From the NCBI RefSeq assembly GCF_902832885.1, contig NZ_CADFDK010000003.1, forward strand, positions 124,001 through 188,000: a DNA stretch of 64,000 bases, read 5' to 3'. Position 1 is the first letter of the stretch, and each line of letters opens with the position of its first letter. A program made the translations under genes and the position numbers. Below, piece by piece: positions 14,852-61,901 of the stretch. The notes under the pieces are model-generated. The model made no database searches. It saw only the letters and a list, made by a program, of their open reading frames with translations, and had not been told where the DNA came from. This stretch comes from Burkholderia seminalis DSM 23518. GTDB lineage: Bacteria > Pseudomonadota > Gammaproteobacteria > Burkholderiales > Burkholderiaceae.

Positions 14852-14865
14852 GGCACGCCGGTTGC
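14852..14865 (+). promoter_or_regulatory. Candidate sigma-54 promoter (GGCACGCCGGTTGC)
   Basis: It has exact GG-N10-GC spacing and matches GGCAY-N5-TTGC. Predicted start is about 14877, 63 bases before the ATG of the acidic-protein gene. It lies in non-coding DNA. Confidence 0.65.
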
Positions 14866-14939
14866 ACGACCGTTCCGTCTGCCGGTTGGCCGGCGGCCGG
14901 GTGGCCGCACGCGACGGCAAGCCATGCAAGGAGATCGAC

Positions 14940-15308
14940 ATGAACAGCACGCTGAACCCCGACAACGAACCGGCCGGCCCGGACGACGACAACGCCACCC
15001 GCGGCCGCGACGGCCGCGCGCTGGGGCCGAGCGACTCGTCCGACAGCGGCAGCGACACGGCCGGCGCGCGGCGCCATCCGTTCGACATCGATTCGCCGCT
15101 CGACGAGCATGCGCTTGAACGCGGCGACGCGTCGCTCGACAGCGACACGGACCGCGCAGGCACCGGCGAGCGTGCGTCGGCCGACGGCGATTCGACGTTC
15201 GACGACGGTGCCGACATCGAGCCCGACCGCACCGAGCGGCTGAGCGAGCCCGGCGGCACCCGGGAAGCGGACGATCCCGCCGAACCGGACGACGGCGGCG
15301 CGTCGTGA
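14940..15308 (+). CDS. Acidic, low-complexity hypothetical protein
   Basis: This is a 122-residue, strongly acidic protein made almost only of Asp, Glu, Ser, Gly, Ala and Arg (start MNSTLNPDNEPAGPDDDN). It is predicted to be disordered, with no hydrophobic core. AAGGAG precedes the ATG. Base use matches the neighbours. Such hydrophilic proteins are often stress-related, but no function can be assigned. It is transcribed from its own candidate sigma-54 promoter. Confidence 0.7.
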   Translation: MNSTLNPDNEPAGPDDDNATRGRDGRALGPSDSSDSGSDTAGARRHPFDIDSPLDEHALERGDASLDSDTDRAGTGERASADGDSTFDDGADIEPDRTERLSEPGGTREADDPAEPDDGGAS

Positions 15309-15325
15309 TGCCCGGCGCGCAAAAA

Positions 15326-15342
15326 CTGCAATCGCGTTGCAG
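15326..15342. promoter_or_regulatory. Candidate activator site: dyad CTGCAA-N5-TTGCAG
   Basis: This is a perfect inverted repeat lying 88 bases upstream of the -24 element at 15430, the usual distance for an upstream site of a sigma-54 activator. Related dyads occur before several other sigma-54 promoters in this window. Confidence 0.5.
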
Positions 15343-15429
15343 ATTGGCGCGCCCGCATGCGTCCGGTCGCGGCGTCCGGCGGCAGGGCGGCGATGCGGCA
15401 TGGATGCATCGGGCATCGGCGGCGATACC

Positions 15430-15443
15430 GGCACGCGACTTGC
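15430..15443 (+). promoter_or_regulatory. Candidate sigma-54 promoter (GGCACGCGACTTGC)
   Basis: It matches GGCAY-N5-TTGC exactly. Predicted start is about 15455, 64 bases before the BON gene. The same 14-mer recurs at 45624. Confidence 0.7.
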
Positions 15444-15518
15444 GTTCGACCCGGACGACGCGCGCCGCGACCCGGCATGGGGCCGTGCGCGGCGCAGGCG
15501 CGATCAAGGAGGGACACG

Positions 15519-16298
15519 ATGCAACGACGATATCCCGGACGGTACGGCGCGCGCGGCATCCCGGACGACCCGGCGCGCTGGCCGGAGGAAGACCATGAAT
15601 CGGCCTCCCGCCGCTTGGCGAGCGAGGACGTCGGCCCCGAAGACTGGGGCAGCGCATGGACCGAGCGCGCCGCGCGGCCGGCCGACCAGCGGCGCGGCGC
15701 GGCCGACGCGGACTGGCCGGGCGGCGCGCGCCCGCCGGCGCGGGGCGGCGAACCCGGCTACGGCGAACCGGGCCCCCGCGCGGAGGGCCGCGAAGGCCGC
15801 TACGGCGGCGAACGTGCCGATTTCCGCGGCCGTGACCGGATCGGCGGGTACGGCGACGAGCGCGACCCGCGCGCTGGCGGCGCGCCGGACCGGTCGCGTG
15901 CCGGCAGCGCGGCCGAACGCGATGCGTTGCGACACTGCCGCGGGCCGAAAGGCTATACGCGCTCCGACGAGCGGATCCGCGAGGACGTCTGCGAGCGGCT
16001 GGCGCATGCGCTCGACATCGACGTGAGCGATGTCACCGTGCAGGTGCAGGACGGCTGCGTCATCCTGGACGGCACGGTCCCGGCGCGCTGGATGAAGCAC
16101 GACATCGAGGATCTGGCTGACGGCTGCATGAGCGTGCGCGACGTCGATAATCGCGTGCGCGTGCGCCGCGAAGGCGAGCACGATACGGGCATGGTGCTGC
16201 ATCCCGACCAGCGGACCGTCACGCCGACGCTGCCGGCCGCACGCGATCCCGAACCGGGCGCCGTCGTGCCCGGCCGCGAGCGCAAGCCGCACCATTGA
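15519..16298 (+). CDS. BON domain protein with Arg/Gly-rich N-terminus
   Basis: This is a 259-residue protein. The first 140 residues are low-complexity (Arg, Gly, Asp, Glu). A BON domain follows at about residues 150-210 (YTRSDERIREDVCERLAHAL, then VTVQVQDGCVILDGTVPARW). BON domains bind phospholipid or other envelope ligands in proteins such as OsmY. No signal peptide is visible, so it may act in the cytoplasm. AAGGAGGG precedes the ATG. It belongs to the same family type as the secreted BON protein at 36535. Confidence 0.82.
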   Translation: MQRRYPGRYGARGIPDDPARWPEEDHESASRRLASEDVGPEDWGSAWTERAARPADQRRGAADADWPGGARPPARGGEPGYGEPGPRAEGREGRYGGERADFRGRDRIGGYGDERDPRAGGAPDRSRAGSAAERDALRHCRGPKGYTRSDERIREDVCERLAHALDIDVSDVTVQVQDGCVILDGTVPARWMKHDIEDLADGCMSVRDVDNRVRVRREGEHDTGMVLHPDQRTVTPTLPAARDPEPGAVVPGRERKPHH

Positions 16299-16344
16299 CG
16301 GCCGTGCACGCCGCGCCGCGATCCCGACCGCGAGCCGCTTACGC

Positions 16345-19591: not shown

Positions 19592-19594
19592 GTT

Positions 19595-19695: not shown

Positions 19696-19775
19696 TGTAC
19701 CTCATGCACCGACGCTTGTCACGACAAGCGTCCCCCATCAGCAGCATGACGCTCGAACGTCGACAGGAGGTGCAG

Positions 19776-22326: not shown

Positions 22327-22329
22327 CGC

Positions 22330-27108: not shown

Positions 27109-28137
<1,029 letters not shown>

Positions 28138-28381
28138 GATGTGAGATCGAATTGGGAAAATATGACCGAATGCGTCGAAGCTGGATGAAAAAATGACGTG
28201 GCACACGTCGTTTTTCATGTATCGAGGATACATTTTGAGCCAATTTCGCGGCATTGAATCTGGCAATGCAGGTAGCGTCGACAGATAGATTTATTAGATG
28301 AACGACGAATGCGCAACCTCGTTCTTCTATACTGCCTAAGCACTTGTTTGTCAGTGCAGGACAGCTTGTCTGCCCGTTCGC

Positions 28382-28436
28382 GTACGGCGCAAAACGCGCC
28401 GCCGCGGCCTGCGCGGCGGCGCGTTTTGCGCCGTAC
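28382..28436. repeat. Perfect inverted repeat, 25-base arms, 5-base loop
   Basis: Arms at 28382-28406 and 28412-28436 are exactly complementary and contain GCGCAAAACGCGCC. It sits 53 bases before the ATG of the receiver-type activator, in the 351-base gap between the two activator genes. There is no T run on either side, so it is not a simple terminator. It may form a hairpin in the leader of the activator mRNA or serve as a protein site. Nothing else clear was found in the gap. Confidence 0.7.
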
Positions 28437-28488
28437 CTGTCGCGGTGCCGGCCGACGATCGCGCCGGGCCGCATTTCAAGGAGCCTCG

Positions 28489-29856
28489 ATGCCATATGTC
28501 CTGATCGTCGAAGACGATGCCGATACGCGAACGATGCTGGCCACGCTTGCGCGCACGCAGCAGCTTGCGTGCGATACGGCGGCCACGCTCGAAGAGGCGC
28601 GTACGCTGGTCTCGACGAATACGCCCGATCTCGTGCTGTGCGATCTCGTGCTGCCGGACGGCAACGGCATGGATCTGTTCGACGCGTTGCCCAAGCGCGC
28701 GCATTGCGAAATGGTGTTGACCACCGGCCACGCGAGCCTGGAAACCGCGATCGACGCATTGCGGCGCGGCGCGACCGACTATCTGGTGAAGCCGCTCAAC
28801 ATGCAGCGGCTGAACAGCATCTTTGCGCGCGTGCCGCGCACGACCGCGCTGCACGAGGAAATCGCGGAGCTGCGCTCGGAGCTGAAGCGCCTCGGCCGCT
28901 TCGGCCGCATGCTCGGCAGTTCGCCCGCGATGCAGGCCGTCTACGACGCGATCGGGCGTGTGGCGCGCACCGAGGCGTCGGTCCTGCTCACCGGCGAATC
29001 GGGCACCGGCAAGGAACTCGCCGCGCAGACCGTGCACGACCTGAGCCTGCGCCGCCGCGGTCCGTTCCTCGCGGTGAACTGCGGCGCGATCGCCGCGAAC
29101 CTCGTCGAGAGCGAGATGTTCGGCCACGACCGCGGCAGCTTCACCGGCGCGGAACGCCAGCACAAGGGCTTCTTCGAACGCGCGGACGGCGGCACGCTGT
29201 TTCTCGACGAGATCACCGAAATGCCGCTCGAATCGCAGGTCAAGCTGTTGCGCGTGCTGGAAACGGGGCGCCTCACGCGGCTCGGCTCGACGCGCGAGAT
29301 CGACGTCGACGTGCGCATCGTCGCCGCGACGAACCGCGATCCGGAAGCCGCGATGGCGGACGGCAAGCTGCGGCCCGACCTGTTCCACCGGATCAACGTG
29401 TTCCCGATTCCGCTGCCGTCGCTGCGCGAGCGCGGCGACGACATCCCGATGCTCGCGGATGCGTTCCTGCAGCGCTACAACGAGGAAAGCGGCCGCAACC
29501 TGCGTTTCGCGCCGGCCGCGCGCGAAGCGCTGAAGACCTACGAGTGGCCCGGCAACGTGCGTGAGCTGCGCAACTTCGTGCAGCGCGCGAGCATCTTCAC
29601 CGATGGCGACGTGATCGACACGCTGCCGCCGCCGATCATGGACGAGCTGTCGAACATGGTCGATTCGCACGAGGATCGCGTGACGGTGCCGTTCGGCACG
29701 CCGCTCGAGGAAGTCGACCGCAAGCTGATCCTCGGCACGATCGCCCAGTGCGGCGGCGTGAAGGCGCAGGCGGCCGAGGTGCTCGACGTCAGCCTGAAGA
29801 CGATCTACAACCGGCTCGCGCAACTGGAAGACGAAGCGGAAAAACCGGATTCCTGA
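28489..29856 (+). CDS. Sigma-54-dependent response regulator (receiver - AAA+ - Fis HTH)
   Basis: This is a 455-residue NtrC-family activator. The receiver domain has VEDDAD, phospho-acceptor D52 in LCDLVLPDG and Lys in YLVKPLN. The AAA+ domain has GESGTGKE at about 169 and GSFTGA as the sigma-54 loop. The C-terminal HTH reads QAAEVLDVSLKTIYNRL, nearly the same recognition helix as the activator on the other strand. AAGGAG precedes the ATG at 28489. It likely drives the sigma-54 promoters in this window when phosphorylated by one of the nearby kinases; this is inferred from context. Confidence 0.92.
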   Translation: MPYVLIVEDDADTRTMLATLARTQQLACDTAATLEEARTLVSTNTPDLVLCDLVLPDGNGMDLFDALPKRAHCEMVLTTGHASLETAIDALRRGATDYLVKPLNMQRLNSIFARVPRTTALHEEIAELRSELKRLGRFGRMLGSSPAMQAVYDAIGRVARTEASVLLTGESGTGKELAAQTVHDLSLRRRGPFLAVNCGAIAANLVESEMFGHDRGSFTGAERQHKGFFERADGGTLFLDEITEMPLESQVKLLRVLETGRLTRLGSTREIDVDVRIVAATNRDPEAAMADGKLRPDLFHRINVFPIPLPSLRERGDDIPMLADAFLQRYNEESGRNLRFAPAAREALKTYEWPGNVRELRNFVQRASIFTDGDVIDTLPPPIMDELSNMVDSHEDRVTVPFGTPLEEVDRKLILGTIAQCGGVKAQAAEVLDVSLKTIYNRLAQLEDEAEKPDS

Positions 29857-31551: not shown

Positions 31552-31587
31552 TGCCCGCCGCCGGTGTTCCCGCGAGGAGCGTATCCG

Positions 31588-36346: not shown

Positions 36347-36360
36347 GCAAACGGCATGCC
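36347..36360 (-). promoter_or_regulatory. Candidate sigma-54 promoter (GGCATGCCGTTTGC), minus strand
   Basis: It matches GGCAY-N5-TTGC on the minus strand. Predicted start is about 36335, 44 bases before the glycosyltransferase. It is divergent from the promoter at 36470. Confidence 0.6.
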
Positions 36361-36403
36361 CGGTGCATTGCCGGGGAAACCGCTTCCCGGCGTGCCGAAA
36401 AAA

Positions 36404-36418: not shown

Positions 36419-36469
36419 TGAAAGGGCGTCCGATCGCGGTTTCCCGCGTACTTGCGCCGCTGCCGGCAC

Positions 36470-36483
36470 GGCACACGACTTGC
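36470..36483 (+). promoter_or_regulatory. Candidate sigma-54 promoter (GGCACACGACTTGC)
   Basis: It matches GGCAY-N5-TTGC. Predicted start is about 36495, 40 bases before the BON gene at 36535. Confidence 0.7.
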
Positions 36484-38974: not shown

Positions 38975-39025
38975 CGCCGACCGGGAAAACGCGGCAGCAG
39001 CGCCGCGCGCCCGCGGGTCGCGCGC

Positions 39026-39039
39026 GGCATGCCGCTTGC
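39026..39039 (+). promoter_or_regulatory. Candidate sigma-54 promoter (GGCATGCCGCTTGC)
   Basis: It matches GGCAY-N5-TTGC. Predicted start is about 39051, 23 bases before the SDR gene at 39074. Confidence 0.6.
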
Positions 39040-43327: not shown

Positions 43328-43447
43328 CGGGGGGAACGGTCTGGCGCTCGGCCTGTCGCCCGCGCAGCGGGGTGCAGACCGGACGGAGAAAGCCGCATCG
43401 CTCGCATCAAGGACTCCCGTGTCGACGATGCGAACGACGCAGCAACC

Positions 43448-43461
43448 GGCATGCCGCGTGC
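43448..43461 (+). promoter_or_regulatory. Candidate sigma-54 promoter (GGCATGCCGCGTGC)
   Basis: The spacing is exact; the -12 element is GTGC. Predicted start is about 43473, 46 bases before the receiver gene. Confidence 0.45.
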
Positions 43462-45269: not shown

Positions 45270-45283
45270 GCAAGCCGTGTGCC
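45270..45283 (-). promoter_or_regulatory. Candidate sigma-54 promoter (GGCACACGGCTTGC), minus strand
   Basis: It matches GGCAY-N5-TTGC. Predicted start is about 45258, 35 bases before the CBS gene. Confidence 0.7.
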
Positions 45284-45302
45284 GCACGGCGCGCGCGGCC
45301 GC

Positions 45303-45611: not shown

Positions 45612-45623
45612 CGGCGCGCGCGA

Positions 45624-45637
45624 GGCACGCGACTTGC
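45624..45637 (+). promoter_or_regulatory. Candidate sigma-54 promoter (GGCACGCGACTTGC)
   Basis: This is the identical 14-mer found at 15430. Predicted start is about 45649, 75 bases before the ATG at 45724. Confidence 0.7.
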
Positions 45638-46036: not shown

Positions 46037-46052
46037 CTTGCAAGTTTTGCAG
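46037..46052. promoter_or_regulatory. Candidate activator site CTTGCAA-GTT-TTGCAG
   Basis: This dyad lies 84 bases upstream of the -24 element at 46136, close to the distance seen at 15326, 59003 and 60110. Confidence 0.45.
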
Positions 46053-46135
46053 TGGACGGTGTAGCGAAGGCACGGCGTGTCGGGGGGAGCCGCTCGCATG
46101 CGCGTTCATGCCGGTCCGCGGGCGACGCGCGCGAC

Positions 46136-46149
46136 GGCATGCGCATTGC
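46136..46149 (+). promoter_or_regulatory. Candidate sigma-54 promoter (GGCATGCGCATTGC)
   Basis: It matches GGCAY-N5-TTGC. Predicted start is about 46161, 56 bases before the Pro-rich gene. Confidence 0.6.
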
Positions 46150-47185: not shown

Positions 47186-47253
47186 GGCCCCGAGCGGCGG
47201 CGACCCGGGGTAGGAACCCGCGAGAGCCGCGGCGCCACGCGCTTTGCCGGATT

Positions 47254-47267
47254 GGCACGAAAGCTGC
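47254..47267 (+). promoter_or_regulatory. Candidate sigma-54 promoter (GGCACGAAAGCTGC) of rpoN
   Basis: In context TTGGCACGAAAGCTGCA it is very close to the classic consensus TGGCACG-N4-TTGCA. Predicted start is about 47279, 39 bases before the ATG of rpoN, suggesting autoregulation. Confidence 0.75.
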
Positions 47268-47317: not shown

Positions 47318-48751
47318 ATGCCCGTCTCGCTTGCGCTGCAGATGCGACAGCATCTCGCACTTACGCCGAGGCTTCAGCAGTCGCTGCGGCTGCTGCAGTT
47401 GTCCTCGCTCGAATTTCAACAGGAACTGCGGCAGGCGCTCGACATGAATCCGTTTCTCGAAGACGGACAAGGCGACGACGAACCTGCCGCCGATACGGCG
47501 GCGCAGCCGGCCGAAACGGCCGCGCCCGACCCGGCGCCCGAACCCGACGAAGGGCGCCCGCCGGACGGCGAGGTGCCCTTTACGGCCGCGCCCGCGCCGC
47601 GCGGCACCAATCGTCAGGGCGACGACGGGGGCGGCCTGTCGCCCGGCGAATGGATCGCCGCCGAACCGTCGCTGCATCAGCAACTCCACGATGCGCTGCG
47701 GCTCTATCCGTTGAACAGGCGCGACCGTGAAGCCGCGCGCATGGTGATCGACGCGCTCGACGACGACGGTTACCTGCGCCAGGAGCTGGCCGAGCTGCTG
47801 GCCGCGGCCGATCCCGCGCTGCTGTTGTCCGAACAGGATCTCATGGTCGCGTTGCGGCTCGTGCAGATGCTCGACCGCCCGGGGATTGCCGCGCGTTCGC
47901 TGTCCGAATGCCTCGTGCTGCAGCTCGAGGCGATTCCGGCCGGCACGCCGGCCCTGGCGGAAGCAAAAGCGATCGCGCGCGAGCATCTCGAGCGGCTCGC
48001 CCGCCGCGAGACGGCCGAAATCCAGCGGCGCCTGGGCTGCAATCAGGAGACGCTGCACACGGCATGCGCACTGGTGCGCGGGCTCGACCCGCGCCCTGGC
48101 AATCACTACGGCAGCACGCGCGGCGACTACGTGGTGCCCGACGTGATCGTGCGCCAGGTGCGCGACGAGTGGATCGTGACGATCAACCCGGCCGTGCTGC
48201 CGCGCGCGCGCCTGCACGAGCGCTACGCGACGCTGTTCGCGCAGTCGAGCGGCGAGCGCGATTCGCCGCTCGGCCAGCAGCTGCAGGAAGCGCGCTGGCT
48301 GATCCGCAACGTGCAGAAGCGCTTCGACACGATCCAGCGCGTCGGCGAATGCATCGTCGCGCGGCAGCGCGATTTCTTCCGCTACGGCGAGATCGCGATG
48401 AAGCCGCTCGTGCTGCGCGACATCGCCGAGGAACTCGACCTGCACGAATCGACCGTGTCGCGGGCGACGGGCAACAAGTACATGGCCACGCCGCATGGCA
48501 CGTTCGAATTCAAGCATTTCTTCCCGCGCAAGCTCGAGGCGGCCGGCCGCGGCGTGTGTTCGGCATCGGCGGCGAAGGTGCTGATCCGCGACATGATCGC
48601 GGCCGAGCGGCGTACCGATCCGCTGTCCGACGTCGCGCTCGCGGCGTACCTCGCGGGGCGCGGCATTCTTCTTGCGCGTCGCACGGTGACGAAGTATCGC
48701 CAGGCGATGAAGATTCCGCCGGCCGACCTGCGGCGTCGCGATGCCGCGTGA
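47318..48751 (+). CDS. rpoN: RNA polymerase sigma-54 factor (probable second copy)
   Basis: This is a 477-residue sigma-54. Region I, the activator-responsive Q/L-rich part, is seen in HLALTPRLQQSLRLLQLSSL. An acidic Pro-rich region II follows (about 50-110), then the core-binding domain. The HTH is near residue 370 (LHESTVSRATGNKYMATPHG) and the RpoN box is ARRTVTKYR at 453-461. The start at 47318 has CAGGAGG. It is not beside lptB, hpf or ptsN, the usual neighbours of the housekeeping gene, so I take it as a second, dedicated copy. A sigma-54 promoter in front implies positive autoregulation. Confidence 0.93.
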   Translation: MPVSLALQMRQHLALTPRLQQSLRLLQLSSLEFQQELRQALDMNPFLEDGQGDDEPAADTAAQPAETAAPDPAPEPDEGRPPDGEVPFTAAPAPRGTNRQGDDGGGLSPGEWIAAEPSLHQQLHDALRLYPLNRRDREAARMVIDALDDDGYLRQELAELLAAADPALLLSEQDLMVALRLVQMLDRPGIAARSLSECLVLQLEAIPAGTPALAEAKAIAREHLERLARRETAEIQRRLGCNQETLHTACALVRGLDPRPGNHYGSTRGDYVVPDVIVRQVRDEWIVTINPAVLPRARLHERYATLFAQSSGERDSPLGQQLQEARWLIRNVQKRFDTIQRVGECIVARQRDFFRYGEIAMKPLVLRDIAEELDLHESTVSRATGNKYMATPHGTFEFKHFFPRKLEAAGRGVCSASAAKVLIRDMIAAERRTDPLSDVALAAYLAGRGILLARRTVTKYRQAMKIPPADLRRRDAA

Positions 48752-49727: not shown

Positions 49728-51833
49728 ATGACCCATTCCCCCTCCGCCGGCAAGACACCGCCCGCACCGTCGCCCGACAGCGCGAAGTCGCGCCAGCTCG
49801 AAGAAAACCGTTCGCGGCCCGACCGCGAGGCGTTGCGCACCAACCAGGGCGTGCGGATCGCCGACAACCAGAACACGCTGCGCGGCGGCGCGCGCGGCCC
49901 GTCGTTGCTCGAAGACTTCATCATGCGCGAGAAGATCACGCACTTCGATCACGAGCGCATTCCGGAGCGCGTGGTGCACGCGCGCGGCTCGGCCGCGCAC
50001 GGCGTGTTCCGCGTCTACGAGCCGATGGCCGACTACACGAAGGCCGCGTTCCTGCAGGATCCGGCCGCCGAGACGCCGGTATACGTGCGCTTCTCGACGG
50101 TGCAGGGACCACGCGGGTCGGCCGACACCGTGCGCGACGTGCGCGGCTTCGCGGTGAAGTTCTATACGGAGGAAGGCAACTACGACCTCGTCGGCAACAA
50201 CATGCCGGTGTTCTTCATCCAGGACGCGATCAAGTTTCCCGACTTCGTGCATGCGGTGAAGCCCGAGGCGCCGAACGAGATGCCGACCGGCGCATCCGCG
50301 CACGACACGTTCTGGGATTTCGTGTCGCTGGTGCCGGAAGCCACGCACATGGTGCTGTGGCTGATGTCGGACCGCGCGCTGCCCGCGAGCTTTCGCGCGA
50401 TGGACGGCTTCGGCGTGCACACGTTCCGCTTCGTGAACGCGGCCGGCGACGTGCGTTTCGTGAAGTTCCACTGGCGCCCCGTGAGCGGCGCGTATTCGCT
50501 GCTGTGGGACGAAGCGCAGCGGATTGCCGGTCACGACCCGGATTTCAACCGGCGCGACCTGTGGACTGCGATCGAGCGCGGCGACTATCCGGAGTTCGAG
50601 CTCGGCGTGCAGATGATCGATCCGGCCGATGCGGACCAGTTCGACTTCGATCTGCTCGACCCGACCAAGCTGGTGCCCGAAGAGCGCGTGCCGGTGCGGC
50701 CGATCGGCCGGATGACGCTGAACCGCAATCCCGACAACTTCTTCGCGGAAACCGAACAGGTCGCGTTTCACCCGGGCCACGTGGTGCCGGGCATCGACTT
50801 CACCAACGACCCGCTGTTGCAGGGGCGCCTGTTCTCGTACACCGATACGCAACTGAGCCGGCTCGGCGGCCCGAATTTCCATGAAATTCCGATCAACCGT
50901 CCGGTGTGCCCGTTCGCGAACAACCAGCGCGACGCGATGCACCGGCAGACGATCAACGTCGGGCAGGCGTCGTACGAGCCGAATTCGACGAGCGGCGGCT
51001 GGCCGCGCGAGACGCCGCCCGCGCCGTCCGGCGGCGGCTTCGAGACCGTGCACGAGCCGCTCGAGGGCGAGAAGGTGCGCGTGCGCAGCGAATCGTTCGC
51101 CGATCATTTCTCGCAGGCCGCGCTGTTCTACCAGAGCATGACCGGGATCGAGCAGCGGCACATCCGCGACGCGTACTGCTTCGAGCTGGGCAAGGTGACG
51201 CAGCCGCGGATTCGCGAGCGGGTGGTCAACGACATCATCGCGCGCTTCGATGGCGGGCTCGCCGCGCAGGTCGCGGAACGGCTCGGGCTGCCCGCGCCGC
51301 ACGCGGCCGCGACGCCGGCCGTCGCGCAGCGCTCGCCGGCACTGAGCCTGATCGGCCGCGCGAAGCCGGGCGTCCGCTCGCGCAAGATCGCGCTGATCGC
51401 GACGCCGGGTACGAGCCAGGCGCTCGTCGAGCAGGTGCGCGACACGCTGCAGGCCGCGCACGCGGTGCCGACGATCGTCGCGCCGACGCTCGCGCCGATC
51501 GGCGGCATCGTGCCGGGGGCGACGCTGGCCGGCATGCCGTCGGTGATGTTCGACGCGGTATTCGTCTGCGGCGGCGACGACGATGGCGGCGATCTCGCGC
51601 ACAGCGCCGACGCACGGCACTTCGTGCGCGAGGCGTTCAAGCACCTGAAGCCGATCGCGGCCGTCGGGTCGGGGCGGCAACTGCTGCGCGCCGCGCACCT
51701 GCCGGACCCGGCCGAAGGCGTGTGCGTCGGGCAGGCCGTCGATCTCGACGCCGTCCTGAAGGCGCTGTCGGACCACCTCGGCCAGCATCGCGTCTGGGCG
51801 CGCGAGCAGCAGGCGGCCGAGTTGCCGGCCTAG
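49728..51833 (+). CDS. katE: Catalase HPII, large-subunit clade
   Basis: This is a 701-residue heme catalase. Residues 1-75 are the clade-2 N-terminal extension. The catalytic His lies in [17 protein letters not shown], the Asn in the VGNNMPVFF block, and the heme Tyr in [18 protein letters not shown]. The C-terminal 150 residues form the flavodoxin/DJ-1-like domain ([12 protein letters not shown]). Large catalases of this type protect stationary cells from peroxide. CGAGGA precedes the ATG. It lies 122 bases after the DUF3022-like gene, in the direction of rpoN. Confidence 0.95.
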
Positions 51834-51848
51834 CGCCGCCGCGCGATC

Positions 51849-52352
51849 ATGGACGTCGTCGTCGCGCTGTTCGGACAGGGCCGGATGCTCGGCCCCGGGC
51901 AGATGGCGCTGCGCGCGGTCGTCGTGTCCGCGATCGCGCTCGTGCTGATCCGCGTCGCCGGGCGGCGCGCGTTCGGCCAGCGTTCGCCGTTCGATTACGT
52001 GGTCGGGATCCTGCTCGGCGCGATCCTGAGCCGCGCGGTGGTCGGCGCGTCGCCGTTCGTGGCGACCGTCGCGGCGTCGTTCGCGATCGCGCTGCTGCAT
52101 CGCGCGATCGGCTGGGCCTGCGTGCGCTCGCGCCGGCTCGAGCGGCTGCTGGTCGGCGCCGAGCGCGAGGTGTATCGCAACGGCCGCTTCGACGACGCGC
52201 AGATGCGTGCCGCGCTGCTCACGCCGACCGACATTCGAGAGAGCGTGCGGCAGGCGCTCGGCGCGAACGACCTGTCCGACGTCGACGCGGCGATCCTGGA
52301 GCGCAACGGCCACGTCAGCATCGTGCGGCGCAGCCGCCGCCGCAGGCCGTGA
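51849..52352 (+). CDS. DUF421 membrane protein (YetF-like)
   Basis: This is a 167-residue protein with three N-terminal membrane helices and the DUF421 block RVAGRRAFGQRSPFDYVVGI. A soluble C-terminal domain follows (REVYRNGRFDDAQMRAAL, then SDVDAAILERNGHVSIV). YetF-type proteins are linked to spore or envelope functions in Bacillus; the role here is unknown. It starts 15 bases after katE. Confidence 0.87.
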   Translation: MDVVVALFGQGRMLGPGQMALRAVVVSAIALVLIRVAGRRAFGQRSPFDYVVGILLGAILSRAVVGASPFVATVAASFAIALLHRAIGWACVRSRRLERLLVGAEREVYRNGRFDDAQMRAALLTPTDIRESVRQALGANDLSDVDAAILERNGHVSIVRRSRRRRP

Positions 52353-52389
52353 CTTGAGCCGGACCCCACACGCGGCAAGGAGGACATCG

Positions 52390-53385
52390 ATGGCACGGAT
52401 GATCTGGAAAGGCGCGATCAGCTTCGGGCTCGTTCACGTGCCGGTGCAGCTGTTCCCGGCCACGCGCACCGTGAAGCCGTCGTTCCGGCTGCTCGACAAG
52501 CGCTCGATGGACCCGGTCGGCTACCGGCAGATCAACAAGCGCACCGGCAAGGAAGTCACGCGCGAGGACATCGTGCGCGGCTACGAGTACGAGAAGGAGC
52601 GCTACGTCGTGCTGACCGACGACGAGATCCGCGCGGCGAACCCCGAATCGACGCAGACGGTCGACATCGTCACGTTCGTCGACGAGGACGCCGTGTCGTT
52701 CCTGTATCTCGACACGCCGTACTACCTCGTGCCGGACCGCAAGGGCGAGAAGGTCTATGCGCTGCTGCGCGACGCGCTGAAGGACAGCGGCAAGATCGGC
52801 ATCGCGCACGTCGTGATGCGCGACCGCCAGCATCTCGGCGCGCTGATTCCGGTCGGGCCGCTGCTGGCGCTCGACACGCTGCGCTGGCAGGAGGAGCTGC
52901 GCCCGCTCGACGAACTGTCGGTGCCGGCCGACGACGCGAAACGTGCCGGTGTCAGCGCGCGCGAACTCGCGATGGCGAAGAAGCTGATCGAAGACATGTC
53001 CGGATCGTGGTCGCCCGACGCGTATCACGACACGTTCCGCGACGACATCCTCGAGCTGGTCGAGCGCAAGGTCCGCGCGGGCCGGATCGAGGAGATCGAG
53101 GACCGGCCCGCGCAGACGGGGCGTGCGGCGTCCAACGTCGTCGATCTGACCGAATTGCTCAAGCGCAGCCTGAAGGGTGGCGGGCGCGCGGGCGGTGGGG
53201 ACGACGATGCGGATACTGAAGCATCGGCGCCTTCGCGTGCGGCCGGCGCGCGCCGCAAACCGGCGGCGAAAGCGCCCGCCAAAGGAGCGGCGAAGGCGCC
53301 CGCGAAACGTACGGCCGCGAAGCGCGGCGCCACCGGTGCGCACTCGGCGAAGAAGGCCGCCGCGCGCCGCAAGCACGCCGCATGA
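52390..53385 (+). CDS. ku: Ku protein, DNA end-binding factor of non-homologous end joining
   Basis: This is a 331-residue bacterial Ku homodimer subunit. The family core is complete: MARMIWKGAISFGLVHVPVQ at the start, YEYEKERYVVLTDDEIRAA, and PYYLVPDRKGEKVYALLRDA. The C-terminal 80 residues are a Lys/Ala/Pro-rich tail, as in Ku proteins that bind DNA and recruit LigD. AAGGAGG precedes the ATG. It is directly followed by ligD. Confidence 0.95.
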   Translation: MARMIWKGAISFGLVHVPVQLFPATRTVKPSFRLLDKRSMDPVGYRQINKRTGKEVTREDIVRGYEYEKERYVVLTDDEIRAANPESTQTVDIVTFVDEDAVSFLYLDTPYYLVPDRKGEKVYALLRDALKDSGKIGIAHVVMRDRQHLGALIPVGPLLALDTLRWQEELRPLDELSVPADDAKRAGVSARELAMAKKLIEDMSGSWSPDAYHDTFRDDILELVERKVRAGRIEEIEDRPAQTGRAASNVVDLTELLKRSLKGGGRAGGGDDDADTEASAPSRAAGARRKPAAKAPAKGAAKAPAKRTAAKRGATGAHSAKKAAARRKHAA

Positions 53386-53409
53386 CGCCGCGTGACGGAG
53401 GATGACGCG

Positions 53410-56205
53410 ATGGCTGGCAAGCTCGATCCGTATCGCCGCAAACGCCGCTTCGACGCGAGCCCGGAACCCGAGGGCGCGCACGGGCGGCGGCGCGCTTCCG
53501 CCGATGCGACTACGCGCACGGGGCGCAACGCGCGACCGTCCGCGCGCGCGGCCAGGCCGCTGCGTTTCGTGATCCAGGAACACCACGCACGGCGCCTGCA
53601 TTACGACTTCCGTCTCGAACTCGACGGCACGCTGAAGTCGTGGGCCGTGCCGAAGGGGCCGAGCGTCGACCCGTCGGTGAAACGGCTGGCCGTGCACGTC
53701 GAGGATCATCCGCTCGAATACGCGTCGTTCGAAGGCGAGATTCCGGCCGGCCATTACGGCGCGGGTTCGGTCGTCGTCTGGGACGAAGGCACGTGGACGC
53801 CCGACGGCGGCGTCGCACAGGCACGCGCCGGCTATCGTGCCGGCAAGCTGACGTTCCGGCTCGACGGCGCGAAGCTGCACGGCGGCTGGGCGCTCGTGCG
53901 CAGCGGGCGGCAGCAGGGCCGCCAGGCGCAATGGCTGTTGATCAAGGAACGCGACGACGACGCGCGCGACGCCGAGACGTTCGATGTCGTTGCCCAGCGG
54001 CCGGGCAGCGTGCATGACGGACACACGCGGGCCGCGCGCGATCCGGCACCGGCCGACGCGGCGCCTTCCGTGCGTGCATCGCGCCGCGCCCGGCGCAACG
54101 CGTCGGACACGCGCGGCGCGGCGCACGACGACGGGCTGGAAAGGCCGCCCACCGACCTGTCGCAGGTAGACGGCGCCGTGCGTGCGGCGTTGCCCGAGCG
54201 CGTCGCGCCGCAACTCGCGACGCTGGTCGATGCGCCGCCGACGCACGGCGACTGGCGCTACGAGGTGAAATTCGACGGCTACCGGATCCTCGCGCGGATC
54301 GCGGGCCGCGGCGCGCGGCGGCACGTCACGCTGATGACGCGCGAAGGCCGCGACTGGACCGCGAAGCTGCGCTTGCAGCGCGATGCGCTCGCGGCGCTCG
54401 ACGTCGACAACGCGTGGCTCGACGGCGAGGCCGTCGTGCTCCGCGACACCGGCCTGCCGGATTTCCAGGCGCTGCAGAACGCGCTCGGCGCCGGGCGCTC
54501 GGACGCGGTGACGCTGTTCGTGTTCGACCTGCCGTTTCTGGACGGATACGACCTGCGCGACGCGCCGCTCACCGCGCGTCGCAGGCTGCTCGAACCGCTG
54601 CTCGCCGGCAGCGACCCCGCGCGGCTGCGCTACTCGCCCGATCTCGGCGACGATATCGCGTCGCTGATCGCGAGCGCGTGCGACACGGGGCTCGAGGGGC
54701 TGATCGGCAAGCGCGCGGATGCGCGCTATCGCGGCGGCCGCTCGCCCGCGTGGATCAAGCTGAAATGCAGGCGGCGACAGGAGTTCGTGATCGGCGGTTA
54801 TACCGAGCCGTCGGGCAGCCGGCATGGCTTCGGCGCGCTGCTGCTCGGCGTCCACGAGCCCGCCGCGGGCGGCAGGCGGTCGCACGGCACGCCGCCACTG
54901 CGTTATGTCGGCCGTGTCGGCACCGGGTTCGATACGCGCCTGCTCGACCGGCTCGCGGCCACCTTGCGCGAGCACGAACGCGCCACGACGCCGTTCGACC
55001 CGCCGCCGCGCGAACGTTCGCGCACGCGCGTGCATTGGGTCGAGCCGATGCTCGTCGCCGAATGCGAATTCGCGGAATGGACCGGCGACGGGATCGTGCG
55101 GCAGGCGGCGTTCGTTGCGCTGCGCGAAGACAAGCCGGCGCGGCAGATCGTCCGCGAGGTGCCGCGCCACACCGACACGGAGACGACGATGGATGGACCC
55201 CGCACCACGCACGACCCGCACCCGCCCGCCGCGCCTGCCGAATCCGCGCACGGCCGCCCGCCGCGCACGCGCTCCGATGCGTCGGCGGGCCGCACGCACG
55301 GCGAATCCGGTGCCGCCCAGGTTGGTCGGGTCCGCATCACTCACCCCGATCGCGTACTCGATCCGCAAAGCGGCACGCGCAAGATCGACCTCGCGCATTA
55401 CTGGCAACGTGTCGCGCCGTGGCTGCTGCCCGACCTGAAAGGGCGGCCCGTATCGCTCGTGCGCGCGCCGGGCGACATCGCCGGCGAACTGTTCTTCCAG
55501 AAGCATGCGGAGCGACGCGAGATCCCGTTCGTCACGCAGCACGAAGGACTGGATCCCGGCCACGGGCCGCTGCTGTCGATCGACAGCGTCGACGCGCTGC
55601 TCGGCGCCGCGCAGATGGGCACGATCGAGCTGCATACCTGGAACGCGCATGCGTCGAACATCGAGCGGCCGGACCGCATCGTGTTCGACCTCGATCCCGA
55701 TCCGGCGCTGCCGTGGCGCGAGATGATCGACGCCGCGCAGCTCGTGCGCGGGCTGCTCGACGCGCTGGGACTCGTGTCCTTCTGCAAGACCAGCGGCGGC
55801 AAGGGGCTGCACGTGGTCGTGCCGCTCACGCGGCACGCGGGCTGGGACGACGTGAAGGCGTTCTCGCGCGCCGTCGCGCAGCACGTCGCCGGCACGTTGC
55901 CCGAGCGCTTCACCGCGACGATGGGGCCGCGCCACCGGCGCGGCAAGATCTTCGTCGACTACTTGCGCAACGGCCGCGGCGCGAGCACGATCGCCGCGTA
56001 CTCGGTGCGCGCGCGGCCCGGCATGGGCGTGTCGGTGCCGCTCGACTGGGACGAGGTGCCCGCGACGACGGGTGGCGCGCAATGGACGATTGACACGCTG
56101 CACGAACGGCTCGATACGCTGAAGCGCGATCCGTGGGAAGACTATGCGAAGACGCGCCAGCGCGTCACCGCCGCGATGCGTGCGCGGCTCGGCGTGCAAA
56201 CGTGA
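53410..56205 (+). CDS. ligD: Multifunctional ATP-dependent DNA ligase D
   Basis: This is a 931-residue protein with the phosphoesterase - ligase - polymerase order. The phosphoesterase lies at about 60-200 (QEHHARRLHYDFRLELDGTL; EGEIPAGHYGAGSVVVWDEG). The ligase at about 265-560 has its AMP-lysine in YEVKFDGYRILARI and the OB part RYVGRVGTGFDTRLL. The polymerase at about 640-930 has THPDRVLDPQSGTRKIDLAH, FDLDPDP and KTSGGKGLHVVVPL. I chose the ATG at 53410 (GGAGG upstream); a GTG six codons earlier is possible. With Ku it performs non-homologous end joining. Confidence 0.95.
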   Translation: MAGKLDPYRRKRRFDASPEPEGAHGRRRASADATTRTGRNARPSARAARPLRFVIQEHHARRLHYDFRLELDGTLKSWAVPKGPSVDPSVKRLAVHVEDHPLEYASFEGEIPAGHYGAGSVVVWDEGTWTPDGGVAQARAGYRAGKLTFRLDGAKLHGGWALVRSGRQQGRQAQWLLIKERDDDARDAETFDVVAQRPGSVHDGHTRAARDPAPADAAPSVRASRRARRNASDTRGAAHDDGLERPPTDLSQVDGAVRAALPERVAPQLATLVDAPPTHGDWRYEVKFDGYRILARIAGRGARRHVTLMTREGRDWTAKLRLQRDALAALDVDNAWLDGEAVVLRDTGLPDFQALQNALGAGRSDAVTLFVFDLPFLDGYDLRDAPLTARRRLLEPLLAGSDPARLRYSPDLGDDIASLIASACDTGLEGLIGKRADARYRGGRSPAWIKLKCRRRQEFVIGGYTEPSGSRHGFGALLLGVHEPAAGGRRSHGTPPLRYVGRVGTGFDTRLLDRLAATLREHERATTPFDPPPRERSRTRVHWVEPMLVAECEFAEWTGDGIVRQAAFVALREDKPARQIVREVPRHTDTETTMDGPRTTHDPHPPAAPAESAHGRPPRTRSDASAGRTHGESGAAQVGRVRITHPDRVLDPQSGTRKIDLAHYWQRVAPWLLPDLKGRPVSLVRAPGDIAGELFFQKHAERREIPFVTQHEGLDPGHGPLLSIDSVDALLGAAQMGTIELHTWNAHASNIERPDRIVFDLDPDPALPWREMIDAAQLVRGLLDALGLVSFCKTSGGKGLHVVVPLTRHAGWDDVKAFSRAVAQHVAGTLPERFTATMGPRHRRGKIFVDYLRNGRGASTIAAYSVRARPGMGVSVPLDWDEVPATTGGAQWTIDTLHERLDTLKRDPWEDYAKTRQRVTAAMRARLGVQT

Positions 56206-57979: not shown

Positions 57980-57993
57980 GCAAACCGCGTGCC
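57980..57993 (-). promoter_or_regulatory. Candidate sigma-54 promoter (GGCACGCGGTTTGC), minus strand
   Basis: It matches GGCAY-N5-TTGC. Predicted start is about 57968, 39 bases before the DUF3175 gene. It is divergent from the promoter at 58018. Confidence 0.7.
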
Positions 57994-58017
57994 GCGCGGC
58001 GCGCCGGTGCCGGTGAC

Positions 58018-58031
58018 GGCATGGGCCTTGC
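58018..58031 (+). promoter_or_regulatory. Candidate sigma-54 promoter (GGCATGGGCCTTGC)
   Basis: It matches GGCAY-N5-TTGC. Predicted start is about 58043, 44 bases before the Gly-rich secreted protein. Confidence 0.6.
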
Positions 58032-59002: not shown

Positions 59003-59018
59003 GTTGAAATCTTTGCAG
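59003..59018. promoter_or_regulatory. Candidate activator site GTTGAAATCTTTGCAG
   Basis: It lies 82 bases upstream of the -24 element at 59100. Read in reverse it is CTGCAA-AGA-TTTCAA, close to the dyads at 46037 and 60110. Confidence 0.45.
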
Positions 59019-59099
59019 CCGGTACGTGGCGACGTCGAATGGCCGGCCGCGCGCACGCGCGCGGCGGCCTTCGCGTGATTGCGGGGTGGTTCCCCGGCC

Positions 59100-59113
59100 G
59101 GTACGCCGATTGC
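59100..59113 (+). promoter_or_regulatory. Candidate sigma-54 promoter (GGTACGCCGATTGC)
   Basis: The -12 element and spacing are good; -24 is GGTAC. Predicted start is about 59125, 39 bases before the DJ-1/PfpI gene. Confidence 0.55.
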
Positions 59114-59163
59114 GGCGCAATCGACGCGGCACGACGTGTGCCGCCATTCCGACGGAGGCATTC

Positions 59164-59712: not shown

Positions 59713-59716
59713 CGCG

Positions 59717-60049: not shown

Positions 60050-60109
60050 CCCGCGTGCCGTTCCCGTGCCGGGATTCGGGCGCACCCGGGCCGCCGGCCT
60101 TACACGCAA

Positions 60110-60125
60110 TTGAAAACTTTTCCAG
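60110..60125. promoter_or_regulatory. Candidate activator site TTGAAAACTTTTCCAG
   Basis: It lies 76 bases upstream of the -24 element at 60201 and resembles the site at 59003-59018. Confidence 0.4.
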
Positions 60126-60200
60126 CCGGGCGCACCCGCCGTCCGGTGCCACATCGCGGGGCAGGCACGCCGCCCGGACATCGATCGCCTCACGCCGGCT

Positions 60201-60214
60201 GGCACGGACCCTGC
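60201..60214 (+). promoter_or_regulatory. Candidate sigma-54 promoter (GGCACGGACCCTGC)
   Basis: In context CTGGCACGGACCCTGCA, it is a close match to the classic consensus. Predicted start is about 60226, 80 bases before the ATG at 60306. Confidence 0.7.
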
Positions 60215-60305
60215 ATGTTCATCCCGTTGCCGGCGCACGATGCGCGCCGCACGCCGATGCGGCGCCGGGAGCGCGTCGCGCGCAGCCGTCAACGGGGAAA
60301 CGAGC

Positions 60306-60551
60306 ATGCTGACCGCCCATGAATTTGCCGCGCTGTTCCTGGCGCATCACGCGCCGGAACAGATCCAGATCGATCGCGACGACATCGTCGCCCTCGTCGA
60401 ACAACACCTGATCGTGATGCAGCACGACGACGCGTCGGGCGAGCACCGTCCCGCGCTGACGGCCGACGGGCTGTCGGTGCTGCGCAGCGTGCAGCGGCAT
60501 GACGCGGCCGAATCCGGCGCGATCGGCCTGAGCGACACCGCCGACGCGTAA
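60306..60551 (+). CDS. Small hypothetical protein (81 residues)
   Basis: This is a soluble protein, MLTAHEFAALFLAHHAPEQI then VALVEQHLIVMQHDDASGEH, with an overall helical, HTH-like look but no recognised domain. The ribosome site is weak (GGGGAAACGAGC). A very good sigma-54 candidate precedes it. Confidence 0.65.
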   Translation: MLTAHEFAALFLAHHAPEQIQIDRDDIVALVEQHLIVMQHDDASGEHRPALTADGLSVLRSVQRHDAAESGAIGLSDTADA

Positions 60552-60581
60552 TGTTTCGCGCTTGCGCGCTGCGCGCGCCGC

Positions 60582-61832
60582 TCACCGCGCAATCGCCACG
60601 GCCGCGTTGACCCGCACGACGGGCGCCGGGCCATCGTGCGGCGGCGCATGCAGGAAGCGGTCGATCACGCCGGCTTCGAACAGCAGGCAGTACGTCGACC
60701 CGCCGAACTGGAAATAACCGATCTCGTCGCCCTTGTCGACGCGCTGCCCCGGCACGACCTCGATCACGCACGACGACACGTCGCCCATCCCGACGAACAC
60801 GGCCGCCACGGTGCCGATACCGGGGTCGTCGCAGGAAAAGGCGACCACCGCACGCGCGGCGACGGACGTCATGTAGCCTTGCGAATCGTTGAGTCCGGCA
60901 GGATCCGGGCCTTCGGCTTCGGCGACCGAGTAGTAGGCGCCGTCGACCCGGTACGCATGCGTGACGACACCACGCACCGGCGCATGCCAGCGATGGTAGT
61001 TGTAGGCGCTGAGATAGGCCTGGTAGACGTCGCCGCCGACGAAGCGTTCGGCCAGCGACAGCCGCGCGGGCGTGAAGAGATCGCGCAGCGAATACGGCTG
61101 CGCCTTGATCCAGAACGTGTCGCGCAGCTTCACGTGCGTTTCGGTGTGATACGGCGCGGCCTCGCACGCGCTGACGATCACGTGCGGATCGTCGGGCGCC
61201 GCGACCGGCCGCGCGCCGTCGCGAAAGCGTCGCGTGAAGAAATCGTTCCACGAATCGAACCCCCAGTGCGGCTGGTCGTCGCGATACCGGAATTGCGACA
61301 GGCCGAGGCGCTCGTACGCTTCGTCGCAGAACCAGCCGTCGGGCGCCGACGTGTCGAGATGCGCGCGCGAGTGCGGGCCGCCGAGGAAGTCGCACCACAC
61401 GGTCAGCATGCGCTTCAGGTGGGCGTTGACGGTCTGGTCGCGAAACACCGCGTGGCCGGACGGCATGCACATCGGCCAGTCCAGGAACGCATTGATCGGG
61501 CAGACGATCAGGCTCGCTTCGCTGAACGGCGGCGTGTAGGTCATCAGGTGGTCGAGCACCGTCATCAGTTCGCCGATCGACGCATAGCCCAGCCGGCGGC
61601 CCGATTCGACCGCTTCGTCGATCGCGCGGGTCAGGCCCATGCGCAACACCGCGTGATCGTCGAACAGCCGCGCGAGGTCCTGCACGGCCGGCGTGCGCAG
61701 CCGGTCGCCGGCATGCGCGCGCGCTTGCGCCGCGACTTTCTCGCGGAACGCGGCCATATGAGCCTCTTCGCGCGCCATCCAGTCGCCGAGCCGGCGGCGC
61801 GTGGCGGGCGGCGGGTTGGAATGGGTGGACAT
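60582..61832 (-). CDS. Phosphatidylserine decarboxylase family protein
   Basis: This is a 416-residue decarboxylase of the larger (fungal-like) type. The catalytic-site region GYFQFGGSTYCLLFEAGVID near the C-terminus contains GGST, where self-cleavage would make the pyruvoyl group. Other family blocks are WNDFFTRRFRDGARPVA, WHAPVRGVV and DVSSCVIEV. It would convert phosphatidylserine to phosphatidylethanolamine or act on a related compound. The N-terminal 120 residues are an extra helical part. The start at 61832 has GGAGGAGA upstream. Confidence 0.88.
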   Translation of the reverse strand: MSTHSNPPPATRRRLGDWMAREEAHMAAFREKVAAQARAHAGDRLRTPAVQDLARLFDDHAVLRMGLTRAIDEAVESGRRLGYASIGELMTVLDHLMTYTPPFSEASLIVCPINAFLDWPMCMPSGHAVFRDQTVNAHLKRMLTVWCDFLGGPHSRAHLDTSAPDGWFCDEAYERLGLSQFRYRDDQPHWGFDSWNDFFTRRFRDGARPVAAPDDPHVIVSACEAAPYHTETHVKLRDTFWIKAQPYSLRDLFTPARLSLAERFVGGDVYQAYLSAYNYHRWHAPVRGVVTHAYRVDGAYYSVAEAEGPDPAGLNDSQGYMTSVAARAVVAFSCDDPGIGTVAAVFVGMGDVSSCVIEVVPGQRVDKGDEIGYFQFGGSTYCLLFEAGVIDRFLHAPPHDGPAPVVRVNAAVAIAR

Positions 61833-61866
61833 TGTCTCCTCCGGACGTCGGTTCGCGTGAAGCGCA

Positions 61867-61880
61867 GCAAGATGCCTGCC
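61867..61880 (-). promoter_or_regulatory. Candidate sigma-54 promoter (GGCAGGCATCTTGC), minus strand
   Basis: The -12 TTGC and spacing are good; -24 is GGCAG. Predicted start is about 61855, 23 bases before the decarboxylase gene. It nearly abuts the divergent promoter at 61888. Confidence 0.5.
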
Positions 61881-61887
61881 CGGCGGC

Positions 61888-61901
61888 GGCACCGGAATTG
61901 C
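61888..61901 (+). promoter_or_regulatory. Candidate sigma-54 promoter (GGCACCGGAATTGC)
   Basis: It matches GGCAY-N5-TTGC. Predicted start is about 61913, 30 bases before the ATG at 61943. Confidence 0.6.

Follow-up and report, generated by a model that had tools for sequence, protein, structure and literature searches.

Why should a Burkholderia replicon carry a second gene for sigma-54 amid many sequences that resemble sigma-54 promoters, and are these promoters real and served by that second factor? The stretch analysed here (the window, 64,000 nt) corresponds to bases 124001-188000 of contig C3 (826,882 bp) of Burkholderia seminalis DSM 23518, whose 7.97 Mb genome is assembled in 55 contigs and holds two sigma-54 genes, RpoN1 on contig C17 and RpoN2 in the window. 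The window gene is 93-94% identical to the copies of B. anthina AZ-4-2-10 and Burkholderia sp. MS389 (L003, L027), both located on chromosome 3, and contig C3 may be the third replicon, i.e., the pC3 megaplasmid of the B. cepacia complex. An initial annotation had proposed a coordinately switched sigma-54 locus for envelope glycan, stress and DNA-repair genes. As predicted from the DNA and its relatives, a real, dense and conserved set of sigma-54 promoters is supported here around a private sigma-54 and its activators, before stress and envelope genes, and we consider it likely that this gene island, which spans roughly 50 kb around rpoN2, is the regulon of RpoN2 as a dedicated sigma-54 paralogue.

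Density and Placement of the Sigma-54-Type Sites

The exact motif GGCAY-N5-TTGC was found 14 times in the window, compared with a mean of 1.26 and a maximum of 5 in 100 shuffles. Genome-wide, 174 matches were retrieved (84 for the reversed-pattern control), and the 160 located outside the window give an expectation of 1.29 per 64 kb (Poisson p ~1e-10). Thirteen of the 14 fall between genes, with a start codon 34-190 nt downstream. When a simple -24/-12 score was applied (threshold 4.5 or more, of 5), 20 intergenic sites were obtained in the window, corresponding to 2.84/kb of intergenic DNA vs 0.035/kb of genic DNA. The intergenic parts of 240 kb around the window and of 160 kb farther off in the same genome gave 0.17/kb and 0.11/kb, respectively. 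Shuffling the intergenic DNA of the window left a mean of 0.57 sites and at most 2 (60 shuffles). Because the motif is far denser between the genes of the window than in genic, control or shuffled DNA, the comparison of densities by which the initial annotation could have failed came out in favour of the dense cluster it described. It had also counted 20 candidates, which need not be the same 20.

Five of the 20 scored sites (14807-, 36353+, 43448+, 59128+ and 59142-) were left uncounted, as they overlap the palindrome of another site or have a poor -12 element. Sites 26179 and 20666/20673 were rejected for lying within genes, as was the motif match at 48662, which covers the RpoN box codons inside the rpoN2 coding sequence and is probably due to chance. 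Sixteen sites were credited, namely the 13 exact intergenic ones, 59100+ (GGTAC), which was added despite its score of 4.0 because relatives carry it, and 47254+ and 60201+ (TGGCACG...CTGC, the T/CTGC class). The context of sigma-54-type promoters, GG-N10-GC with GGCAY and TTGC elements upstream of genes, was found, with a start codon 34-190 nt downstream of all 16 credited sites and a ribosome-binding-like sequence in 14. The earlier statement that nearly all sites lie 20-80 bases before a start holds for 10 of the 13 exact intergenic ones and is slightly generous for the full range.

Conservation of the Promoters in Related Loci

Conservation was surveyed in 28 Burkholderia loci (L003-L030), in the 260 bp upstream of the orthologues of each downstream gene and with a site score of 13 or more. 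For 14 promoters, the two T/CTGC ones being counted separately because the weight matrix does not describe them, a site was detected in 88/96 orthologues under lax filters (35% identity, 40% coverage) and in 80/84 under the filters also used for the controls (60%, 60%), which drop 12 rows including both orthologues of 61888. These two are distant and below threshold, with weaker sites at the same distance. Among the other genes of the window (43 tried), the same stricter filters gave a site in 13/223 orthologues; the comparison with related Burkholderia that had been suggested at the outset thus showed that the promoters recur. All 28 Burkholderia loci have a site 38-59 nt upstream of rpoN2 itself; T precedes GG in 27 of them, and the -12 element reads CTGC in 23 and TTGC in the other 5. 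In the Nevskia rpoN2 loci, a TGGCATGG-type site, there with GTGC, was present in 3/3.

These data bear on the possibility that base composition or repeats of GC-rich DNA (e.g., GGCATGCC palindromes) produced the sites, which would then have no promoter function. Some sites do include CGGCATGCCG and are matched on the two strands at overlapping positions, but their excess over shuffled intergenic DNA, their rarity in genes, their orientation towards start codons and their retention in orthologues make such an origin hardly credible.

A Second Sigma-54 with an Altered RpoN Box

That the region encodes its own sigma-54 was borne out. RpoN2 matched PF00309, PF04963 and PF04552, all above cut-off, as well as TIGR02395 and NCBIfam PRK12469 ('RNA polymerase factor sigma-54'; 816.6 bits, cut-off 396), and is 44% identical to RpoN1 of its own genome. 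In a tree of 54 proteins, for which the program warned of long branches elsewhere, the Burkholderia RpoN2 and Nevskia proteins formed a clade (100/99) apart from RpoN1. The usual RpoN box of the C-terminal helix is ARRTVAKYRE, and this form was found in RpoN1 and in 46 of 47 other loci, the remaining one having ARRTVTKYRE. The box reads ARRTVTKYRQ in the window and in 28/28 Burkholderia RpoN2 loci, and ARRTVTKYRN in 3/3 Nevskia loci. The changes of the RpoN2 clade, A to T and E to Q or N, fall in the element reading the -24 region. The intermediate box ARRTVTKYRE is that of a Silanimonas sigma-54 (L075) placed on a long branch.

Of 65 congeneric genomes, 54 carry RpoN2 (64% identity or more); among the 11 that lack it, one is only 82% complete. 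In one genome lacking a full RpoN2, two short rpoN2-like fragments (77% and 70% identity) were observed at G021:C2:2607191-2607544, perhaps the remains of a lost copy.

Promoter Class and Genus-Wide Association with RpoN2

The island promoters have lost the preference for T before the GG of the -24 element. T was found in 0/13 island sites and in 7/88 orthologous sites (C 78, A 2, G 1), compared with 12/24 upstream intergenic sites elsewhere in the genome (Fisher p 0.002), the latter being those among 79 matches in stretches centred on the matches listed (100 of 174). Adding three upstream sites from the C3 flanks, none with T, gave 12/27 (Fisher p 0.004). The promoter of rpoN2 itself retains T. 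Genus-wide, the density of CGGCAYRC-N3-TTGC was 3.72/Mb in 54 genomes with RpoN2 vs 2.42/Mb in 11 without it (p 8e-4), the reversed control pattern being equal (1.11/Mb and 1.18/Mb, respectively). An orthologue of the island CBS-domain gene (74% identity or more) was found in 39/54 genomes with RpoN2 vs 0/11 without it (p 9e-6). The CBS genes of two RpoN2-lacking genomes, G007 and G009 (59-61% identity), were rejected as orthologues, since they match a paralogue that also occurs in RpoN2-bearing genomes.

Several points weigh against assigning the island to RpoN2. C precedes ~70% of all GGCAY words in this DNA and T ~6%; C is therefore the background base at this position and only the loss of T preference can be safely stated, so that C before GG, tried as a positive signal of specificity, was kept as that loss alone. 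The paralogue of the CBS gene (~60% identity), which is spread over genomes with and without RpoN2, has CGGCAC-N5-CTGC 33 nt before its start in the same genome (contig C6) as well as in G007 and G009, and such sites may thus not need RpoN2. The island-type site before a Dps-like ferritin gene is exact in 4/13 RpoN2-bearing and 1/6 RpoN2-lacking loci (5/19 examined). In published work, an E. coli rpoN mutant regained the use of amino acids when given rpoN2 of B. pseudomallei, and the RpoNc and RpoNp of Bradyrhizobium sp. DOA9 bound most tested promoters alike in electrophoretic mobility shift assays in vitro (PMC13207237). The RpoN2-lacking genomes keep a motif density above control (2.42 vs 1.18/Mb); the orthologue and genome counts given above lack phylogenetic independence, and operon-internal genes are frequent among the controls. 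Moreover, katE, Ku and LigD have no site scoring at least 4 within 300 bp, either in the window or in 6, 12 and 12 relatives, respectively, and dyad and word counts, a Markov-corrected word score and expectation maximisation revealed no enhancer motif shared by all promoters (see below).

The background frequency of C, the CBS paralogue, the dps site kept in G007 and the two published experiments would all fit a rival in which the housekeeping RpoN1, alone or along with RpoN2, serves these sites as ordinary sigma-54 promoters, specificity is supplied only by local activators and RpoN2 is a redundant spare. Against it stand the signature change of the RpoN box in all the Burkholderia RpoN2 loci, the absence of T before GG in the island compared with half of the sites elsewhere, and the genus-wide link of RpoN2 with both the motif and the CBS target, and we judge it unlikely. 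The dps site was not taken as a sign of RpoN2 dependence: two RpoN2-lacking genomes have a decayed -12 element, but losses occur in RpoN2-bearing genomes too.

Activators and a Candidate Enhancer Palindrome

The two activators announced for the region were both recovered, each with the features of enhancer-binding proteins, an AAA+ domain with a GAFTGA-type loop (GSFTGA) and a helix-turn-helix, recognised as Sigma54_activat and HTH_8. The NtrC-type activator lies at most 10 kb from rpoN2 in 11/28 Burkholderia loci. The surroundings of rpoN2 in three Nevskia loci (11.6-21.4 kb) hold proteins that share 51-59% identity with the activators, together with a kinase of 30-36% identity; relatives of other window genes were not found in these loci, except for a 62294-like gene (two loci) and a receiver-domain match (one). 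For these Nevskia metagenome-assembled genomes (L031, L032, L033), which carry an rpoN2 of the same clade together with the activator-like genes and kinase, transfer and deep ancestry are both possible.

A palindrome with the consensus YGVAA-N3-TTNCAR was recognised by eye in the upstream regions. In the window, Burkholderia and Nevskia loci it has 44 cases, 33 of which lie 42-200 nt upstream of a correctly oriented sigma-54-like site, vs 12.7% expected by position; judged by eye, the cases belong mostly to four orthologous families (36402, 46045, 59011 and 60117). Because the pattern is only slightly enriched over the genome, with 62 matches (23 for the control), and its weight matrix separates poorly (alone, 0.31/kb in the window vs 0.61/kb in the flanks at score 8, and 0.16 vs 0.06 at score 12), it is not island-specific. 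In Nevskia, neither of two strict matches was tied to a promoter. The palindrome is a fair candidate for an activator site.

Motif searches gave little else. In 40 upstream regions (one per orthologue cluster), dyad and word counts returned nothing but GC-rich words, at frequencies close to those in shuffles; the Markov-corrected word score returned AT-rich words in a few promoters only, and an expectation maximisation run allowing zero or one occurrence per sequence (ZOOPS) gave no convincing motif. With the candidate palindrome near four (strict) to six (loose) of the 16 window promoters, the coordinate switching by one activator is unsupported. The promoters might instead be RpoN2-served and yet belong to genes under separate control, a different activator for each being encoded elsewhere in the genome. 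Besides the missing common motif and the limited spread of the palindrome, this would agree with the variable spacing from the -12 element to the start (34-190 nt). We regard it as doubtful, considering the NtrC-type activator gene recurring near rpoN2 in Burkholderia and its relatives in the three Nevskia loci, the palindrome preceding a sigma-54-like site in three quarters of its cases, and the ability of sigma-54 activators to act from a distance, which does not require a site at every promoter.

Genes of the Island and Candidate Members Beyond It

The coordinates of promoters, genes and candidate enhancers are collected in Table 1. The genes directly behind the sites encode a Rieske/reductase protein, two BON-domain proteins, a GT4 glycosyltransferase followed by a sugar epimerase, a short-chain dehydrogenase, a uracil-DNA glycosylase with an Nramp protein, CBS-domain and PRC-barrel proteins, a DUF3175 protein, a DJ-1/PfpI protein and RpoN2, in addition to six small proteins without family.

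The inclusion of DNA-repair genes stood for the uracil-DNA glycosylase, whose site recurs in all orthologues, and not for Ku and LigD. Likewise, among the envelope glycan genes the GT4/epimerase pair (33926-36291) is directly served, whereas the run of glycosyltransferase genes (19704-27098) lacks any credible site of its own; promoter 15430+ could reach it only through a very long operon. Within this run, a NodU-like carbamoyltransferase (22330-24075, +) was noted, below the NodU cut-off. Ahead of it, at 16345-19122 (+), lies an ABC exporter of 925 aa with membrane and ATPase domains and a C-terminal response-regulator receiver, an unusual-looking fusion.

No good site was found in the window before the Na/H exchanger, DUF4142 or DUF892 genes. 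For NhaP, DUF892 and the first DUF3022 gene, no site scoring at least 4 was present within 300 bp upstream, in the window or in relatives, and DUF4142 had one in a single relative. Two 4.0 matches before DUF1328 (L010, L015) were discarded, being located where rpoN2 ends.

Beyond the window, a similar motif with a plausible start was found before genes for a Dps-like ferritin (C5:327931), MgtC (C3:209074), GlgE (C3:204379; A before GG) and a small lipoprotein (C13:90691). The regulon may thus extend to the right of the window with the GlgE and MgtC sites. For dps, the survey was based on a 70-residue query, which found the gene in 18/30 genomes.

Table 1. Features of the rpoN2 island and candidate members elsewhere (window coordinates unless a locus is given; fractions are orthologues with a site)
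Feature	Sequence	Position	Strand	Remarks
Promoter of rpoN2, T/CTGC class	TGGCACGAAAGCTGC	47253..47267	+	site conserved in relatives
Promoter before Rieske/pyridine nucleotide reductase (9434)	CGGCACGCGGATTGC	9229..9243	+	exact motif; 6/6
Promoter before 14940-15308 (no family)	CGGCACGCCGGTTGC	14851..14865	+	exact motif; orthologues for comparison: 0
Promoter before BON-domain gene 15519	CGGCACGCGACTTGC	15429..15443	+	exact motif; 1/1 (45% identical)
Promoter before GT4 glycosyltransferase 34972-36291	GGGCATGCCGTTTGC	36347..36361	-	exact motif; 2/2
Promoter before BON-domain gene 36535	CGGCACACGACTTGC	36469..36483	+	exact motif; 5/5
Promoter before short-chain dehydrogenase 39074	CGGCATGCCGCTTGC	39025..39039	+	exact motif; 5/6
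Promoter before uracil-DNA glycosylase 42620-43327 and Nramp	CGGCATGCCGGTTGC	43442..43456	-	exact motif; 10/10
Promoter before CBS-domain gene 44792-45223 and PRC-barrel gene	CGGCACACGGCTTGC	45270..45284	-	exact motif; 14/16
Promoter before 45724-46029 (no family)	AGGCACGCGACTTGC	45623..45637	+	exact motif; 14/15
Promoter before 46217-46459 (no family)	CGGCATGCGCATTGC	46135..46149	+	exact motif; 4/4
Promoter before DUF3175 gene 57573-57929	CGGCACGCGGTTTGC	57980..57994	-	exact motif; 15/16
Promoter before 58087-58503 (no family)	CGGCATGGGCCTTGC	58017..58031	+	exact motif; 6/6
Promoter before DJ-1/PfpI gene 59164	CGGTACGCCGATTGC	59099..59113	+	6/7
Promoter before 60306-60551, T/CTGC class	TGGCACGGACCCTGC	60200..60214	+	TGG...CTGC in at least 6/11 (L004, L007, L008, L010, L011, L012)
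Promoter before 61943-62191 (no family)	CGGCACCGGAATTGC	61887..61901	+	exact motif; 0/2 over threshold
Candidate enhancer palindrome	TTGCAAGTTTTGCAG	46038..46052	+	centre 91 nt before -24 GG of 46136+
Candidate enhancer palindrome	TTGAAATCTTTGCAG	59004..59018	+	centre 89 nt before 59100+
Candidate enhancer palindrome	CGAAAAAATTACAA	36396..36409	+	between divergent promoters
Candidate enhancer, longer spacer	CTGCAATCGCGTTGCAG	15326..15342	+	~96 nt before 15430+
Candidate enhancer, longer spacer	TTGAAAACTTTTCCAG	60110..60125	+	~84 nt before 60201+
rpoN2, second sigma-54 (477 aa)		47318..48751	+	RpoN box ARRTVTKYRQ; Pfam AID/CBD/DBD; PRK12469; tree
Enhancer-binding activator without receiver domain		27109..28266	-	GSFTGA; Pfam Sigma54_activat, HTH_8
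NtrC-type response regulator/activator (receiver, AAA+, HTH)		28309..29856 (start may be 28489)	+	GSFTGA; Pfam Sigma54_activat, HTH_8
Hybrid histidine kinase (DUF4118, two PAS, HisKA, HATPase, receiver)		31564..33900	+	near rpoN2 in L006, L007, L015, L016, L028
PAS hybrid histidine kinase		13065..14657	-	
katE (HPII), YetF, Ku, LigD		49833..56205	+	downstream of rpoN2, same strand
CBS paralogue	CGGCACGGCATCTGC	L210:435-860 = G000:C6:43734-44159	-	site 33 nt before start
Dps-like ferritin gene, island-type promoter	CGGCATGCGGATTGC	L094 (G000:C5:327931)		site 47 nt before start; poorly conserved
GlgE maltosyltransferase gene		L141:12940-16332	-	GGCACGC-type site 46 nt upstream; 16 kb right of window
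MgtC gene		L142:316-1011	-	GGCACGC-type site 62 nt upstream; 21 kb right of window

A Possible Regulatory Circuit

The anatomy of the locus and its conservation are read directly from the DNA, while the regulatory steps are inferred. Transcription of rpoN2 would begin at a conventional TGGCAY-type sigma-54 promoter used by RpoN1 or RpoN2 itself. The RpoN2 holoenzyme would then sit, closed, at the CGGCAYRC-N3-TTGC promoters of the island until the NtrC-type activator, phosphorylated by the neighbouring hybrid kinase on a stress or starvation signal and bound at the palindrome ~90 nt upstream of some promoters, opens them. Firing would yield the protective products of the CBS, PRC-barrel, BON, DUF3175, DJ-1, uracil glycosylase/Nramp, short-chain dehydrogenase and GT4 genes, and perhaps of dps elsewhere; katE, Ku and LigD would be reachable only by read-through from the rpoN2 promoter. 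Such an arrangement would amount to a two-tier sigma-54 circuit feeding a stress/envelope regulon.

A stronger version, a cascade with partly private codes, is offered tentatively, as a possibility somewhat short of probable. RpoN1 would fire the T/CTGC promoter of rpoN2, and RpoN2, through its ARRTVTKYRQ box, would read the CGGCAYRC-N3-TTGC sites that RpoN1 reads poorly; together with the kinase-driven activator, this would give a sigma-54 general stress response with targets in and beyond the island (perhaps dps, glgE and mgtC). The idea of a switched envelope, stress and repair locus is in this sense retained as far as conserved promoters before stress and envelope genes go, and has to be given up in the breadth of repair, the glycosyltransferase run and the single activator.

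Comparison with Known Systems and Significance

Paralogous sigma-54 factors with divided regulons are already known; those of Rhodobacter sphaeroides serve nitrogen fixation and flagella. As here, the promoter preferences of the R. sphaeroides paralogues differ, the reported difference being at -11 (cited in PMC3162934, as far as its available text goes). B. pseudomallei, like the window, has a second Burkholderia sigma-54, located there on chromosome 2 (PMC4745423). It probably belongs to the same clade, since in the genus survey the full-length second RpoNs among the matches listed were all of this clade. The accessible portion of that study, which deals with katE and a partial proteome, describes loss of katE transcription in the rpoN2 mutant and a potential RpoN box before katE, and mentions neither an island nor a promoter class or RpoN-box signature (PMC4745423). 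In the window, katE has no good site of its own.

In Ralstonia solanacearum, the megaplasmid rpoN2, 44% identical to RpoN1 and likened here by its published description, is described in the available text as without phenotype and of enigmatic role, its expression being abolished in the rpoN1 mutant (PMC4371752). By analogy, this matches what the T-type promoter of rpoN2 suggests in the window. The megaplasmid RpoN of Bradyrhizobium sp. DOA9 has been tied to stress genes, with a second set of sites changed from TGG to CGG before the -24 GG, in the part of the report at hand (PMC13207237), which makes the idea of a promoter class more plausible and less new. The 22 sites reported there are genome-wide and may be served by either RpoN; they are also changed from TGC to CGC at -12 (PMC13207237), whereas the window sites were chosen with T there. 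No description of an RpoN2 stress island, of this Burkholderia promoter class or of the RpoN-box signature came up in searches of an open-access library, which is weak evidence as subscription papers are mostly outside it. The initial view of an undescribed system can thus be kept for the island regulon as a whole and not for RpoN2-dependent katE, already published for B. pseudomallei (PMC4745423). The new element would be that the regulon is clustered and stress-oriented and comes with both a common promoter class and a recognition-helix signature.

These features point to a dedicated and little-explored RpoN2 stress regulon. General stress regulons are usually ascribed to sigma-70-family factors, RpoS among them; those of RpoS and EcfG hold similar kinds of targets (catalase, Dps, DJ-1, BON and small DUF proteins) and depend on sigma-70-family factors, in contrast to the activator-dependent sigma-54 of this island. 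An island of this kind, conserved and equipped with a sigma-54, activators and matching promoters of its own, would provide activator-gated stress control as an alternative to that of the sigma-70 type. It would also help to explain a second rpoN, whose role has been called enigmatic in the available account from Ralstonia (PMC4371752). With RpoN1 and RpoN2 as naturally occurring paralogues, the reading of the -24 element by sigma-54 becomes open to comparison. Finally, a 2014 study by Agnoli, to go by its title, reportedly attributes stress tolerance to the third replicon of the B. cepacia complex, and the island is a candidate basis for this tolerance.

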